DNA of 27,608 nucleotides from a virus. The notes below the pieces were generated by a model. That model saw only the letters and a program-made list of their open reading frames with translations, ran no database searches and had not been told where the DNA came from. This document shows positions 2,732 to 26,979 of this stretch, in pieces. Position numbers and translations under genes: made by a program. How positions within the stretch are numbered: position 1 is the stretch's first letter; each line of letters starts with the position of its first letter. The DNA lies in the IMG/VR virus record IMGVR_UViG_3300027971_000180, positions 1 through 27,608 of that record; one strand, 5' to 3'.

Positions 2732-5700
2732 TTAATCCTCTGGATCTTCTTCTACAATTGTTTTTAGGGTAAAACTAGTAAGAGTACTAGTACTACTATA
2801 GTTGTTGTTAGTATCTAAAACTCTACAAGCTATTCTGTACTGCACACCAGCTTCAGAAATTCTTGGCTGATCAAAAGTGCGTAGGTCTATTCTACTTGCA
2901 CTACGACTTTGAACAAATTTAATAGTGCTCAATGTAGTTCCTAAATCCCAGAAGTCTTGGGCAGTGTTTCCAGAACTTTTATACGCCCTATACTCAAAAG
3001 TTTTAAACGTATCGTCTTTTGATACAGTACTATCGCTAGGAGTAATTACTAAGTAATACCCATCTAAATCAACTGTTATATTAGGCGGAACTAAGCTATT
3101 AGTGCGCTTACCTACAACTACTGCAGTAAAAGGTGGATCGGACCAAGGACCTCGTACAGTTCCCAAGTTATTTAAATATCTAGCTCTAAATTTATAAGGT
3201 TGCTCAGATACTAATCCACGAATTTCAACGCCAGCACTAGCAGTTTTATCTACAGTAATATTTAAACCAATGCTATCACTGTTTAAGCTTTCTGTTCCTG
3301 CAACATACTGTACTTGTACTCGTTGAGCTGTTTGAGTTAATCCATTAGGATGCGCTATTGATAACTTTAAGATATTGGTATATACACCTGGCGAACTTAA
3401 TTCAGCAACCGCACTATCACTGGTAGCTTCTTGAATAAATGGTACATCAGTAATTGAATTAACAACTACATCGTTGTTGCTACCAGTAATTTGTGGATCG
3501 TATACTAGGTTTTGAAAATCTTCAGCATATATTTGTGATGAATAGTCTGTTAAGGTTAACACAGCACTAGTATTGCTGGTAGGTTCAATAGACAGCACAA
3601 CTAATTCTTGTGAATCTTTTGCTGTAGTGCCCACCAATTCACCAAGCATAAATAAGTTATCTGAAGCAACGCCTAGTGTAACTAAGTCTTGATTAACCAT
3701 AATTACACTGGTATATCCAGTAGTATAACCAACTAAAGTTTTATTAGTTATACTATAAAATGTACTGCTGTTAGTTCTAAATCTAATAGTGTAAGTTTTT
3801 GTGCTGTCTAAATATACTTGTTCTGTTAAGTTTATAGTACTATTACCAGTTTGACTACTATAACTAATACTGTTAACTCTGCCACTTGCAGTACCCCATT
3901 GTGGAATATCATGTGATACTCGAACTAAATCACCACGAGTACACACCAAATACTCAAAATCAACATTAAGTTTATAAGTTTCTGGACGCAATTTTAGCTG
4001 AGCAAGGTGCCATTTAGCTAAAAAAGTAGCCTGAGCTTTATTTGTTACACCGGGTAGGGACAGCTGTTCATAAATTTTTGCATTATTAGCGGTCATGTTT
4101 TCTCTGAAAACAAAGAACTCATCTGGTTGATAAGCTTTGGTTTCATTGTTAATAGTTACTCTAAAAGCATCTGGGATTTTTGGTAGTGCTTTAGTAGATT
4201 CAAAACCCCAACTATTATGTGGTGTAAAATGTTGTGTTACATAACTTCGCGGTTTGTCAACAACCACAGACCACTTGCCATTTATCATGGTAGGACTAGC
4301 TAAACCCGCAGCACAAATTTCACGCAGTGTGTCCATAACACTTTGTGTACTAGTAAGCACATTATTATAAGTAAACTTTTTAATTTCACAAAAATTATGC
4401 CACTCTGCTAGTTGCACCAAGTCAATATCACTATCGACTACAGCATACATATTAGCAGGATGTTGTAACACATAGCGAAATAAACTAGCAGGATTGTTAA
4501 TAGGCAGATTTGGGGTCCATGTTTTTGTAGCACCATTATTAGTATAAATTACATCATATCCGCGAGTTTGCACTAGCGCATTTATTCCGTCAACATTACC
4601 ATTTACTTTATTAGTACTTTGCAATCTAATAGCTGTTCTGGCTAAATAACATCCTGACGGATTAGTAATAGGTTTATTATTACTATATCCTGTTACACTA
4701 TATAATATAGATTTATCATAATTATTAAATCCGCTGCTTTCAGGAACATCATTACCACCAAATGAATAATTATATCTGCGTACTCTTACGCTATAAAGAG
4801 CAGGAGGTAAGTCTCTGATGTTATAGGTTGCATTAAAGGCGTCTTTTTTCTTTGCATAATCAGTGCCCTCAGCACCCCAACTTAGGATAGTTTTAGCTGC
4901 AACATTAGCGCTATTTTGTCCGTCTTGGGTAATAGTAAACTTTACAGCTACTGCAGCAGGTGTAGTAATATCGGTATTTACAGCAACTATTCGCACAGTA
5001 TGCGTTCCTGCTGCGATAAGTACACTGTTGCTAAATACCGTACTATAAGAGTCATTATTTAAAGACATTACCAAATTATCGTCTACATATATTTGTGCAG
5101 TATTATCTGCACTAGCATATACGGTATAAACTCCTGCATTAGCTGCTGAAACTGTCCAAGTTTGTGTAATATCACAAGTAGTTGTATACACAGTACCAGT
5201 ACCACTGCCTATACCTGTGGATGTAAATACTGTTCCTACTATGGCACCTGCAGGCGCACCAATACTTTGCCAATTAGTATTACCCAAGGTGGCAATTTTA
5301 TATACTTTTCCTGCTACAATACTTGTGGCAGTATAACTACACCACCGACCATAATCTTGTAAAAAACTATACCAAGTACTTTGAGTTGCAGGAACTACAA
5401 TATTATAGCTGCTAGTACTTGCAAATTCTTTTACACTAAATTTTTCTTGTTGTGTAATACTTGTAATAGCAGTTTGAGCACTATTACTAATATTGCCAGT
5501 ATTAATACTAACTTTTAAAGTACCGTTTGTAGTATCTTCTGTTTTAGTAAGATCTAAACCTGTTACTGTACCTGATTGACTACGTTTATCTTCTTGTGTA
5601 AAGAAAATACTTGAATCAGTACCTATTGCACTTCTTAGGCATATTCTGTACAACTCAACATGATTACTAGGAATTACTGGAAGTCTAGTATATTGTTCAG

Positions 5701-22942: not shown

Positions 22943-24232
22943 CTAGATAGTGTATGTGTACAGTGCATAACGAATAGCATCGGCCATGTGTGAGTACTTA
23001 TCATGTACAGGGCGCTCGCGCTGTAAATTTTCACGACTATCCCAACGATACTGGTCCATTACGTCTAAGACGTGCTGACAATGTGGTGATATTTTTAACC
23101 TGCCGGTTTCTACTAAGGTCTGTACGTAGGCAATACCTGGTAACACGTCTTTTTTAGCCTTAGTGGTAGAGATGTTGTAAGTGTAAGCAAGATCGCCAGC
23201 AAACTGTGCTGCTGCCGAATCTATAAATACTACTTCCACCTGCCAGCGATCCAAGTACTCACGAAATGCTAGGGCATGCTTGTCTGTGGTAGCCTCGCTT
23301 TTTAAGTACTCGTCTACAATGTGGAAACTGTCACTATGAGGATTATAGCTGATAACCACAAAAGCAGTAGCGTCGCGATAGCCTGGATCGCAACCAGCAA
23401 TGTATTCGCAACCGTCTTGGTGTGTATATTCTGCAACGCCAACCTCACGACTAAAGTTATAGATCTGACCCTCAAACACATTAAAGCTGGCTAAGTATTC
23501 TTGCTCAAATTCAGCCTTTGACATCGACCGGCGCGCTTCTTGCACGTCCGATTCAGCCATTCTAGAATTCTCAGTATAGTCTGCTTGCAGTGAACACCAT
23601 TCAGGATACTCATCGCTAAAACCACGTTGGTAAAACTTTGAAAACCAGTTTTGCTGACCGCGGGGGGTGGAGATAAAAATGGCTTTTGAATTAGGTCGGT
23701 CTAGTGTAGGGCGTAGTTGCACGTTAAATGCCGACTCACCATCATCGCCTAGTGCAGCCTCGTCAAATAGGATAATTTGGTAACTGCGTCCAACTGTTGA
23801 GTCTACTGTACTTAAGGAACCCATGCGGATTGTAGAACCGTTGCTCAACTCTACTACTTTGTCTTTTAGGTTATCACGTTCTACTTCTAGGTCAAAGTGA
23901 CGTATAAACTTACGTTGCAGTTCAAATGAGATGCTGGATAGGTTGTAGTTTGGCGAAATAATCAACACATTGCATTTAGGGACTAGTGAGACTAGCTGTG
24001 CAATAATATTAGCAATATAAGTTTTACCAAGTCGGCGGGCTAGTGCGGCGCATACAAACCGGTACTTGGGGTTATTGATTGCGTTGATTAGGGCAATTTG
24101 TGGGCGATTCATAGAATCCCAAGCACCTAATAACTTCAAGTAGTTTTCAATAGGTAGTTTAATAAAACGATCTTGTACAGGAAACTCTGTAATCTCATCA
24201 CGGTCTACATCATCACGCGAAATTTTAAGCAT
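22943..24232 (-). CDS. Terminase large subunit
   Basis: A 429-residue DNA packaging motor and nuclease. The ATPase half has a Walker A-like ALARRLGKT (residues 63-71) and Walker B IILFDEAA (153-160), with the coupling motif 'AIFISTPRG' near 184-192. The nuclease half has the acidic triad of the RNase H fold: Asp282 (GCDPGYRDATA), Asp338 (VVFIDSAAAQ) and Asp418 (HMADAIRYAL). Length is normal for the family. The start forms TAATG with the small subunit stop, with AGGAG about ten bases upstream. It docks on the portal and fills the head using ATP. Confidence 0.93.
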   Translation of the reverse strand: MLKISRDDVDRDEITEFPVQDRFIKLPIENYLKLLGAWDSMNRPQIALINAINNPKYRFVCAALARRLGKTYIANIIAQLVSLVPKCNVLIISPNYNLSSISFELQRKFIRHFDLEVERDNLKDKVVELSNGSTIRMGSLSTVDSTVGRSYQIILFDEAALGDDGESAFNVQLRPTLDRPNSKAIFISTPRGQQNWFSKFYQRGFSDEYPEWCSLQADYTENSRMAESDVQEARRSMSKAEFEQEYLASFNVFEGQIYNFSREVGVAEYTHQDGCEYIAGCDPGYRDATAFVVISYNPHSDSFHIVDEYLKSEATTDKHALAFREYLDRWQVEVVFIDSAAAQFAGDLAYTYNISTTKAKKDVLPGIAYVQTLVETGRLKISPHCQHVLDVMDQYRWDSRENLQRERPVHDKYSHMADAIRYALYTYTI

Positions 24233-24714
24233 TACAATTTGTCTCCTAGCAGCCGACTAATAAGTGCTCCGTACTTGGTACCGTCACCGCCTTCATTGAT
24301 TTGCACGTTTACTTGCGATTTAGGTCCTTGACGCTCTGACCGCAGCTTTTCTAGCTGAATTTCGCGGTCTAGTAGTTCCATGCTCATTTTATGTGATAGT
24401 GCTAAAAGTTCTGCAATGTCTTTATTCGAGCCAACATCTGCCTCCTCCATTTCCTTGAACTTGCGTTTTAGGACTGCATCCATTGCTGACCGCATTTTAA
24501 AACGGTTGTTAAAGCCTAGGTCAAAGAAAACTTGGTTGATATAAGACTTTACTTCTCTGCGGGCTAGGATGCCAGACACGCTTTCTACGGGCAGTCCTAA
24601 GTTGTCTGCGACCGCACGTGCGTCTTGGCATTGCAGGTAGCAATTAGCCACTTCCAGTGCCTCTGGAGAAATTTCCAGCACCTCCGCGGGTGCTGTGGTT
24701 GGGGTCAGGTTCAT
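24232..24714 (-). CDS. Terminase small subunit
   Basis: A 160-residue protein just upstream of the large terminase, its normal place. Residues about 18-60 form a helix-turn-helix ('ALEVANCYLQCQDARAVADN' then 'LGLPVESVSGILARREVKSY'), followed by a helical oligomerisation segment (about 70-128) and a Gly-rich tail ending 'YGALISRLLGDKL', which may contact the large subunit. It recognises the packaging site on phage DNA. The ATG overlaps the previous stop (ATGA) and only a weak AAGA lies ahead, so translation is probably coupled. Confidence 0.82.
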   Translation of the reverse strand: MNLTPTTAPAEVLEISPEALEVANCYLQCQDARAVADNLGLPVESVSGILARREVKSYINQVFFDLGFNNRFKMRSAMDAVLKRKFKEMEEADVGSNKDIAELLALSHKMSMELLDREIQLEKLRSERQGPKSQVNVQINEGGDGTKYGALISRLLGDKL

Positions 24715-25031
24715 TTCTTAATCTTTTCTTCTAGGATAACAATACGTTCACGATTTAAGTGGATAAAGTCACGATTTGCCTGGATTTCTTTTTCTAAATC
24801 TTGACGCAGTTTTTCACGTGCTAATTCTGCACCAGTATTAGTAGCCTGCTTGTTGTCGCTGGTGACTACTAGTGAGATTTTTGAATTCAGCACAGTAACG
24901 TCGTGTTGTAGGTTTTGTAGTGCACTCATCAAGTACACTACGCAGGTAAATAACAGTGGTAACAGTGCAAATGTAAGTTTTTCAATAAGCTGACCTTTAG
25001 CGTGGACTTCTTCTAATTTCTGTTCCGACAT
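24711..25031 (-). CDS. Single-span membrane protein with coiled coil, unknown function
   Basis: A 106-residue protein. One hydrophobic segment (about 19-38, 'LTFALLPLLFTCVVYLMSAL') follows a short charged N terminus. The rest is a charged helix (about 65-105, with heptad-like Leu/Ile) that could be a coiled coil. AAGGAG lies eight bases before the ATG and the start forms TAATG with the glycosyltransferase stop. Its layout fits a holin-like or spanin-like lysis factor or a membrane adaptor, but no family is recognised. It sits between the lipid-type genes and terminase. Confidence 0.65.
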   Translation of the reverse strand: MSEQKLEEVHAKGQLIEKLTFALLPLLFTCVVYLMSALQNLQHDVTVLNSKISLVVTSDNKQATNTGAELAREKLRQDLEKEIQANRDFIHLNRERIVILEEKIKK

Positions 25032-26032
25032 TATATTCTCCTTATTAAGTTATATTCAAATATCTGCCAGCATTTTTCCCATGACCAGCGATAGCTAGCC
25101 ACCACTACTACGTGTCTGGGAATTGCTAGTGCACGTACCACAGCCAGTTTAAGATCTGGGCTAGTGTAACCGGTTCTGTCCAGCTCTATCACATCTTGTG
25201 GACCACAAACTGGATAGGCTGCCACAGGTGTACCACACGCCATTGCTTCCAACATTACAATGCCAAAAGTATCCCAGCGGCTGGTAAATACTAGGCAATC
25301 TGCTTGCTGGTAGTAGCTGGCTAGTTCCTTACCAGTTTTCATACCCACAAATTGGACTTCAGGGTACTTGCTCTGCAGGTACTCACGCTGCGGCCCATCA
25401 CCGACCACAATTTTACGAGCACCTAGGTAGTCCAGCTTGCAAAAGTCCTCGCACGACTTTTCCACAGAAACGCGACCAACCCATAAGAGTGTAGGGTACT
25501 TAGTTTCACGAAACTCTGATGTTGGATAAAACTGCTGGCGATCTACACCGCGGGTCCAGGGCACAATATCGCCGCAAAAGCCGTGTGATTTAAGTTCATC
25601 AACCATGCTGACTGTAGTAGCTAACACTTTGCCCGAATGCTTGTGAAACCAGCGTAAGTAGCGATAGGTCCAGCGCTCAGGAATTTTATAGTACTTCTTG
25701 ATAGCTTCTGGCAGTTTGGTGTGGTAGCTGGTGTTATACCGCCAACCATGACGATCCATCCAGCAACGTGCAGCTAAGCCCAGTGGCCCCTCAGTGGCAA
25801 TGTGTACATAATCAGGGTTTACCCTTTCCAGTTTTTCACCAATGCCACGAGGCCACGCCAACCTAATATCGCTGTAGCCAAGAGCACCACAATTAGGGAA
25901 CTGCCGGGGATCACAATATACAATATTGTAGCCGTGGCTATTTGCCTCGCGTTCCAAGTTGTTGAACGTTGTAACCACTCCGTTAATTTGCTGGGGTACA
26001 TTATCCGTTACTATTAGTATTGTTTTCGGCAT
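25031..26032 (-). CDS. Family-4 glycosyltransferase, Agt/alpha-mannosyltransferase-like
   Basis: A 333-residue GT-B fold enzyme of the GT4 class. The N-terminal lobe has 'INGVVTTFNNL' (16-26), 'HIATEGPLGLAAR' (77-89) and 'SYHTKLPE' (102-109); the nucleotide-sugar lobe has 'TRGVD' (160-164), 'VGRVSVEK', 'VVGDGP' and 'DTFGIVMLEAMACG' (254-267), where the first acid of the usual E-x7-E is Asp. These are the marks of the group that contains bacterial lipid glycosyltransferases such as Agt and PimB/MgtA. Its gene overlaps the metallophosphoesterase by 32 bases with GGAGG before the ATG, so the two are co-made. Probable reaction: transfer of a hexose or hexuronic acid from a nucleotide sugar to diacylglycerol or another lipid. 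Donor and acceptor cannot be read from sequence. Confidence 0.85.
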   Translation of the reverse strand: MPKTILIVTDNVPQQINGVVTTFNNLEREANSHGYNIVYCDPRQFPNCGALGYSDIRLAWPRGIGEKLERVNPDYVHIATEGPLGLAARCWMDRHGWRYNTSYHTKLPEAIKKYYKIPERWTYRYLRWFHKHSGKVLATTVSMVDELKSHGFCGDIVPWTRGVDRQQFYPTSEFRETKYPTLLWVGRVSVEKSCEDFCKLDYLGARKIVVGDGPQREYLQSKYPEVQFVGMKTGKELASYYQQADCLVFTSRWDTFGIVMLEAMACGTPVAAYPVCGPQDVIELDRTGYTSPDLKLAVVRALAIPRHVVVVASYRWSWEKCWQIFEYNLIRRI

Positions 26033-26777
26033 CTTTTGGCCTCCATGTTATAATCTGCCACTCTCCTTCCAGGGTCTCTACTAAGGCAGTACACGACTCT
26101 ACCCAATCTCCCGAATTCATGTAGCCTATGCCCGCCACGGTCTTAATCTCAGCTTGATGAATGTGACCACAGATTACGCCAAAAAACTTGCGTTTTTCAG
26201 CATATTTGGTAATAGTCTGCTCGAATTTGAATACAAAGTCTACTGCGCGTTTTACCTTGGACTTTAACCACTGCGATAGACTCCAGTAACCAAAGCCTAG
26301 GCGGTGACGTAATTGGTTAAACTGGGTGTTTAAGCCTAGGACAAAATCATAGGCGCTGTCGCCTAACCAAGCTAGCCAAGGTGCTAATCTGGTAATGCCG
26401 TCAAACATATCGCCGTGTGTAACTAACCAGCGGCGGTTATTGAGGTCTAAGTATTCGCACTGGTTTACCACCTCGATGCGGCCAAACTTTAAACCGTAAC
26501 TGATTAGTGGTCTAAGGAATTCGTCGTGATTGCCGGCCACGTATATAACACGGGTTTTTTTACGATTAGCTTTGGCTAAAATATGCCTGACCACATTGGT
26601 ATGCTGATTAGTCCAGCGCAGCTTATTTTGCTTGACCTTCCAACCGTCAATAATATCACCAACCAAGTACAGTGTATCACAAGTGTTAGACTTTAAAAAT
26701 TGGCTTAGGTACTCAGCTTTACTAGCCTTGGTACCTAAGTGCACGTCCGAAATAAATACGGCGCGGTAGTGTGCCAT
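26001..26777 (-). CDS. Metallophosphoesterase, LpxH/PlcP-like
   Basis: A 258-residue calcineurin-type phosphoesterase with a full two-metal site: Asp11 and His13 (SDVHLG), Asp41 (GDIIDGW), Asn83-His84-Asp85 (GNHDEF), His121 (THGDMFDG), His205 and His207 (GHIHQAE). The 'GYWSLSQWLKSKVKRAVDFV' segment and 'YMNSGDWVESCTALVE' near the C terminus are typical of the proteobacterial subgroup often annotated UDP-2,3-diacylglucosamine diphosphatase, which includes PlcP, a phospholipase C. Such genes are often followed by a GT4 gene exactly as here. By that context PlcP-like release of diacylglycerol from phospholipids is more likely than lipid A synthesis, but this is inference. The ATG forms TAATG with the 50-residue upstream gene and lacks a strong ribosome binding site. 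Confidence 0.85.
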   Translation of the reverse strand: MAHYRAVFISDVHLGTKASKAEYLSQFLKSNTCDTLYLVGDIIDGWKVKQNKLRWTNQHTNVVRHILAKANRKKTRVIYVAGNHDEFLRPLISYGLKFGRIEVVNQCEYLDLNNRRWLVTHGDMFDGITRLAPWLAWLGDSAYDFVLGLNTQFNQLRHRLGFGYWSLSQWLKSKVKRAVDFVFKFEQTITKYAEKRKFFGVICGHIHQAEIKTVAGIGYMNSGDWVESCTALVETLEGEWQIITWRPKDAENNTNSNG

Positions 26778-26929
26778 TATTTGTCACGTTTGTTGTAAAG
26801 ATCAAATAAACTTTTTACTTTATCTTCTAAAACGCCCAAACGCATATCTGCTTTGGCAAAAAGGACTACAATCATAATAAAGGCCACAAATACTGGCCAA
26901 GCTTTTAACATTAACTCGATAATTTCCAT
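26777..26929 (-). CDS. Small membrane protein, 50 residues, unknown
   Basis: A short gene at the head of the minus-strand operon. A near-ideal ribosome binding site (GGAGG, six bases before ATG 26929) and a strong promoter upstream support it. The protein starts MEIIELMLKAWP, has one hydrophobic span (about 11-25, ending LFAKAD) and a charged helical tail ending NKRDK. Its TAA shares a base with the metallophosphoesterase ATG (TAATG), so it probably couples translation of the lipid-type genes. It could be a membrane anchor or a holin-like protein; no family is recognised. Confidence 0.75.
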   Translation of the reverse strand: MEIIELMLKAWPVFVAFIMIVVLFAKADMRLGVLEDKVKSLFDLYNKRDK

Positions 26930-26950
26930 GGTCGACCTCCAGTTCACTAG

Positions 26951-26979
26951 AGTATAACACTTTAGGGCTGTAATGTCAA
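26951..26979 (-). promoter_or_regulatory. Strong sigma-70 promoter for the minus-strand late operon
   Basis: TTGACA (26979-26974) and TATACT (26956-26951) with a 17-base spacer and TG one base before the -10 (extended -10). Transcription would start near 26944, about 15 bases before the 50-residue gene. It is the first promoter for the lipid-type, terminase and downstream genes. Confidence 0.82.

Follow-up and report, generated by a model that had tools for sequence, protein, structure and literature searches.

A predicted PlcP-Agt-type pair of lipid-remodelling genes in the packaging operon of a phage

Does a phage that carries a phosphoesterase gene overlapped by a glycosyltransferase (GT) gene use the two to rebuild the membrane lipids of its host? 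Phages are known to carry photosynthesis, nucleotide and phosphate-uptake genes, and the phosphate in the phospholipids of a cell is of about the same order as that in the nucleic acid of the phages released in one burst. The question was raised by a virus record of 27,608 bases (hereafter the window), which contains the minus-strand late region of a siphophage with genes for the terminase subunits TerS and TerL, portal, a prohead protease-capsid fusion, head-tail and tail proteins and a J-like tail protein. The original prediction described an intact two-metal phosphoesterase overlapped by an intact GT4 glycosyltransferase and compared them with PlcP and Agt, by which bacteria split phospholipid to diacylglycerol and add a sugar. 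Both ORFs were confirmed to be intact by their motifs and Pfam scores, and they overlap by 32 nt.

In transcription order, a promoter-like site is followed by a gene for a small transmembrane (TM) protein, the phosphoesterase, GT4, a second small TM gene, TerS and TerL (Table 1). The pair had been placed in a phage late operon directly upstream of terminase. The late, packaging operon was correct, but the gene of 106 codons intervenes between GT4 and TerS. The first gene of the operon has a GGAGG ribosome site before its ATG at 26929 and codes for a hydrophobic segment; its product would be 56 aa (26777-26947) with translation from the GTG at 26947 instead. This 50-56-aa single-TM gene was retained in 17 viral loci, and a family search with the protein gave no match. 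The 106-aa single-TM gene was retained in close relatives with a dN/dS of 0.08, and its product had no match in Pfam or PHROG. No meaningful match to defence-system profiles was found, and scanning the window for Rfam families and tRNAs gave no match.

Table 1. Positions of the promoter-like site and the genes of the operon in the window.
Feature	Position	Strand	Basis
Promoter-like site, TTGACA-17-TATACT with TG before -10	26951..26979	(-)	11/12 consensus matches
Small single-TM protein, first operon gene	26777..26929	(-)	ORF; 50 aa from ATG 26929
PlcP-type two-metal phosphoesterase, 258 aa	26001..26777	(-)	PF00149, tree, motifs
Agt-type GT4 glycosyltransferase, 333 aa	25031..26032	(-)	PF13439, PF13692/PF00534, tree
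106-aa single-TM protein, between GT4 and TerS	24711..25031	(-)	ORF, TM segment
Terminase small subunit TerS	24232..24714	(-)	phrog_3802, 131 bits
Terminase large subunit TerL	22943..24232	(-)	PF03237, PF17289; phrog_2

The order PlcP-GT4-TerS-TerL-portal was kept in divergent contigs, down to about 52-60% protein identity. Among 15 close relatives, the median dN/dS was 0.079 for PlcP and 0.123 for GT, compared with 0.062 for TerL and 0.045 for TerS, indicating that both genes are under purifying selection. Because of this synteny and the low dN/dS, the pairing of PlcP and GT4 in the window is more than chance, and the two genes form a recurrent cassette among phage hallmark genes and under selection, as is asked of auxiliary metabolic genes. 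The distance matrices of PlcP and GT were correlated (Mantel r 0.84, 0/999 permutations), which partly reflects shared phage ancestry. Virus-specific clades were found in both the PlcP and the GT tree, and the window lay outside the betaproteobacterial clades in both, so that the pair looks like an established virus lineage rather than a fresh capture. That the two genes stem from the host, through an error of assembly or of virus calling, is extremely improbable, since, even though the window is only a 27.6-kb fragment, dozens of contigs had the cassette next to TerS, TerL and portal, it was also found in contigs of 99-343 kb and its proteins formed the virus-specific clades above, and host contamination was ruled out by the recurrent synteny.

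The phosphoesterase scored 49.7 bits with PF00149 (Pfam gathering 21.5) and contains the five motifs SDVHLG, GDIID, GNHDE, THGD and CGHIH. The corresponding two-metal calcineurin-like set (D.H, GD..D, GNHDE, HGD, GHIH) was invariant in the alignment, and the full PlcP motif set was present in 113/113 viral copies. A maximum-likelihood tree was built from 80 proteins, in which eight LpxH references, all above the LpxH cut-off and each from a PlcP-bearing genome, separated at 100/100 and the window protein fell within the PlcP family. Characterised PlcPs stand in this tree as same-species orthologs picked by their gene neighbours, and those of Sinorhizobium meliloti and Pseudomonas aeruginosa were on the window's side of the LpxH split. 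The sequences representing P. aeruginosa come from a plasmid record with the gene order plcP-GT-cyaB, which we equate with PA3219-PA3218-PA3217 on the basis of the gene order in PAO1. The window PlcP showed 52.9% identity over 238 residues to the PA3219 ortholog and 47.7% to the S. meliloti ortholog, both above the 46.6% that the two references share with each other. The phosphoesterase thus groups with characterised bacterial PlcP and not with LpxH, as the original prediction had it.

An LpxH-type UDP-2,3-diacylglucosamine hydrolase, with a GT that decorates LPS, would give the pair a different role, the alteration of lipid A or LPS. In public records, proteins of this kind do bear the name UDP-2,3-diacylglucosamine hydrolase or diphosphatase, and the closest solved folds to the AlphaFold model of the window PlcP (pLDDT 80.6) were LpxH-lipid X structures. 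Taken alone, however, the fold search favours LpxH because the PDB matches included no PlcP structure, and the decision between PlcP and LpxH rests on sequence and tree, with the fold neutral. The helical lid (about residues 123-180) was modelled at low confidence, so the lipid pocket is not judgeable from the model. With the curated LpxH models the window protein scored 47 bits (NF003743, cut-off 134) and 33 bits (TIGR01854, cut-off 190), and the two reference PlcPs were comparably low (55/45 and 38/39 bits). Its GNHDE occupies the position of GNRD in the LpxH references, and 8 of 12 genomes holding a PlcP of the window's family have a separate LpxH above the cut-off. LpxH as the identity of the phosphoesterase was therefore rejected by the tree split and the scores under the cut-offs, and a role of the pair in lipid A or LPS is very unlikely. 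The window PlcP is predicted to be a phospholipase C that cleaves phospholipid.

The GT4 gene has a GGAGG ribosome site, and its product scored 74.7 bits with PF13692 (gathering 27) and 53.3 bits with PF13439 (gathering 28.5). The GT4 motif set was present in 82/84 viral copies. The AlphaFold model (pLDDT 93.5) had a GT-B fold nearest to BshA/PimB'/MshA. In a tree of 86 proteins, 42/42 viral GTs formed a single clade (100/100) inside the Agt family, from which other GT4 paralogs split off at 100/99. The nearest cellular proteins to the viral clade were a Pseudomonadales PlcP-linked GT (97/79) and the ortholog of PA3218 (Agt1) (87/93), and the latter shares 40.2% identity with the window GT. 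This result places the window GT4 in the Agt clade together with Agt1 and PlcP-linked GTs, again in line with the original prediction, and the protein is predicted to be a diacylglycerol glycosyltransferase. Neither the window PlcP nor the GT has a clear TM segment, which fits enzymes that attach to the membrane on its cytoplasmic side. The chemistry of PA3219/PA3218 is established, with MGDG formed by PA3218 in E. coli (PMC8528852), and a SAR11 Agt expressed in E. coli yields MGDG and GADG (PMC4796936).

We analyzed gene neighbours of PlcP in cells and viruses. Among the 80 nearest cellular PlcPs from GTDB genomes, GT4 was directly downstream in 44/80, often with an overlap of a few bases, and a Burkholderiales MAG possessed a natural PlcP-GT4 fusion of 625 aa in one ORF (L159:5001-6878). 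These neighbours and both trees support the reading of the window genes as a PlcP-Agt-like pair. The bacterial model of adjacent genes, for which Sinorhizobium and marine bacteria had been named, held for P. aeruginosa PA3219-PA3218 (PMC8528852) and for SAR11 (PMC4796936), but not for S. meliloti, where the neighbour of plcP is not a GT.

For viruses, 80 IMG/VR loci were retrieved with PlcP alone as the query. GT4 was downstream of PlcP in 43 of them, a GT2 (PF00535) was in the same place in 30, and neither was present in 7; GT2 and GT4 occurred together in 0/80. In none of these 80 loci did the 2.5 kb upstream contain a same-strand GT2 or GT4. When the search was reversed, PlcP was found upstream of GT2 in 77/77 loci with room and upstream of GT4 in 46/48. 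The start of GT2 mostly overlaps the plcP stop by 3-25 bases. The GT2 form is represented by L051:5749-6459 and 29 further viral loci. The viral-type GT2 was found in 0/80 cellular PlcP loci and had no match in 150 genomes from the order of a Methylotenera MAG. A ceramide-glucosyltransferase-like gene beside a divergent PlcP of Gemmobacter was considered as its kin and rejected, as no similarity was found.

The two loci with GT4 and no PlcP were near-identical contigs retaining the last ~18 codons of plcP before the GT, which mark a deletion (L118, 4958-5038; L122, about 3540-3596), with GT4 intact. The loss of plcP with retention of the GT in these two relatives implies that some phages can do without their PlcP. 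That two GTs of different folds alternate behind the same PlcP is good evidence for a GT step working on the product of PlcP. Diacylglycerol would be the obvious common acceptor of GT4 and GT2, which for GT2 we infer.

Some cassettes contained additional genes. A protein of 56-64 aa with a hydrophobic start, conserved cysteines and a weak match to phrog_5579 was encoded between PlcP and GT at L003:5725-5919 and in about 40 other cassettes, and is missing from the window. In some large phages a RimK-family ATP-grasp ligase was between PlcP and GT4 (L035:5734-6621, L036:5889-6779, L052:2926-3816), and this enzyme may attach an amino acid to a target, possibly the lipid. In some GT2 cassettes, genes for a phrog_3577 protein and a class II aldolase came next, ahead of TerL (L016:7038-7679, L016:6464-7057).

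The acceptor of GT4 might instead be phosphatidylglycerol, ceramide or a polysaccharide, with PlcP acting separately. The best NCBIfam model for the window GT was N-acetylglucosaminyl-phosphatidylglycerol synthase, though at 56 bits against a cut-off of 480, and some lipid GTs of Caulobacter use ceramide and not diacylglycerol (PMC6445935). Nevertheless, the ortholog of the MGDG-forming PA3218 gave the same best model at 59 bits, and the tight pairing with PlcP and the exchange with GT2 fit a shared diacylglycerol acceptor. We regard another acceptor as unlikely.

We consider it probable that the phage carries the pair as a PlcP-Agt operon for lipid remodelling. Most likely it would cut phospholipid to diacylglycerol and then glycosylate the diacylglycerol, where we infer both the chemistry and the sugar. 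PlcP, a two-metal phosphodiesterase at the inner membrane, would remove the phospho-head group of PE or PG to leave diacylglycerol, and GT4, with a UDP-sugar as donor, would add a hexose or uronic acid to it, giving MGDG- or GADG-like glycolipids. Such a pathway could serve the phage in two ways: lipid phosphate might be freed for phage DNA, or the envelope might be changed in a manner that hinders a second phage or eases lysis.

Regulatory sites bear on this choice. The window operon is predicted from the consensus match to have a sigma-70-type promoter, and both hexamers were retained in relatives in which the spacer and flanks had changed. A Pho box is typical of plcP though it does not define the family; upstream in the window, 0 matches to one were found, and Pho-box control of the window's own operon was rejected since it has no site. 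Phosphate starvation need not be the trigger for it; with both enzymes made from the phage's own operon, the pathway would run with or without phosphate starvation of the host. Upstreams of cellular plcP had a Pho box (<=3 mismatches) in 36/79, against 1.5 expected. When 69 distinct viral upstreams were scanned with a matrix made from the cellular sites only, about 9 had a Pho-box-like site against 1.4 expected when other windows of these contigs serve as background; 7 of the 9 sit 24-44 bases before the plcP start. These loci belong to phages outside the window's group. Pho-box-like direct repeats such as ATGTCATATTATTGTCAT were seen before plcP in L044, L025, L051, L019, L029, L026 and L045. 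For those relatives, use in phosphate supply is favoured.

The host was judged from a 99-kb sister contig. It codes for a permuted tmRNA that scored 139.8 bits on the Rfam betaproteobacterial model RF01850 (cut-off 84), and the sister-phage tmRNA (L270:9080-9464) has the tag ANDEVFALAA. The contig also carries five tRNAs, PhoH and a TctC-type binding protein, and had weak matches to an outer-membrane beta-barrel and an Rz1-like protein. The gene for the TctC/Bug-type periplasmic binding protein is beside that for the possible outer-membrane beta-barrel protein (L271:16269-17210, L271:15606-16220). A betaproteobacterial, Gram-negative host is likely for the window's phage group. The window TerL, used as a prophage and host query, had no match in 150 genomes from the order of a Methylotenera MAG, a result that says little about the host.

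The strongest competing explanation accepts that glycolipids are made and differs from ours in purpose only: the aim would be envelope change, as superinfection exclusion, masking or preparation for lysis, and not phosphate supply. The window operon has its sigma-70-type promoter without a Pho box and lies between genes for small TM proteins and packaging genes, and the sister phage has the possible outer-membrane beta-barrel and the TctC-type binding protein. In bacteria, a glycosphingolipid made by Caulobacter under starvation lowers phage adsorption (PMC6445935), and aminolipids of Ruegeria alter phage attachment (PMC9938194). Against it, other phages that carry this cassette have Pho-box-like sites, which link it to phosphate in those phages. 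We give envelope change a substantial chance, somewhat short of even.

For the wider set of loci, we lean slightly towards the view that a widespread group of environmental phages actively converts host phospholipids to glycolipids, with PlcP constant and its partner either an Agt-like GT4 (GT-B) or a previously unrecognised, diacylglycerol-glycosylating phage GT2 (GT-A), and that the cassette would be PhoB-controlled in some phages and part of the packaging operon in others, including that of the window. These patterns in sequence and gene order suggest that phages rebuild host membranes during infection. If true, a phage pathway from phospholipid to glycolipid would be a single function linking the phosphate economy with the make-up of the membrane.

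Bacteria are already known to have both the chemistry and the gene pair, and lone plcP-like genes are known in phage isolates under LpxH names. In the open literature, we found no paper on a phage plcP-GT cassette, on the GT2 exchange or on Pho boxes before phage plcP. The novelty of the phage cassette is provisional, because subscription papers and preprints lay outside the literature searched. The cassette may have been missed, as phage PlcPs are labelled lpxH or 'UDP-2,3-diacylglucosamine diphosphatase'. For example, the lpxH auxiliary gene listed in a table of the Lake Baikal virome (PMC9611531) could be a phage PlcP.

Compared with known systems, LpxH shares the superfamily and overall fold of the window PlcP, but belongs to another clade with another motif, and the window protein is under the curated LpxH cut-offs. 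The plcP-like genes of Pelagibacter phage Mosig EXVC030M (43% identity to the window PlcP) and Synechococcus phage S-SRM01 (34%) are also phage-borne, but are annotated as UDP-2,3-diacylglucosamine hydrolase/diphosphatase and, unlike the window gene, have no annotated GT beside them. PlcP of S. meliloti is of the same family (48% identity), while its gene has no adjoining GT in the record examined. In SAR11 and other marine plcP-agt loci (type 2 context; PMC4796936), agt is directly downstream of plcP as in the window, but these genes are cellular and linked to phosphate stress (PMC4796936). P. aeruginosa PA3219-PA3218 (PMC8528852) has the same layout of PlcP followed by an overlapping GT4, with the same motifs and the same clades (53% and 40% identity to the window proteins). 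Unlike it, the window pair is phage-borne and part of a packaging operon that has a predicted sigma-70-type promoter and no Pho box, and its proteins belong to a virus-specific lineage with a predicted activity.
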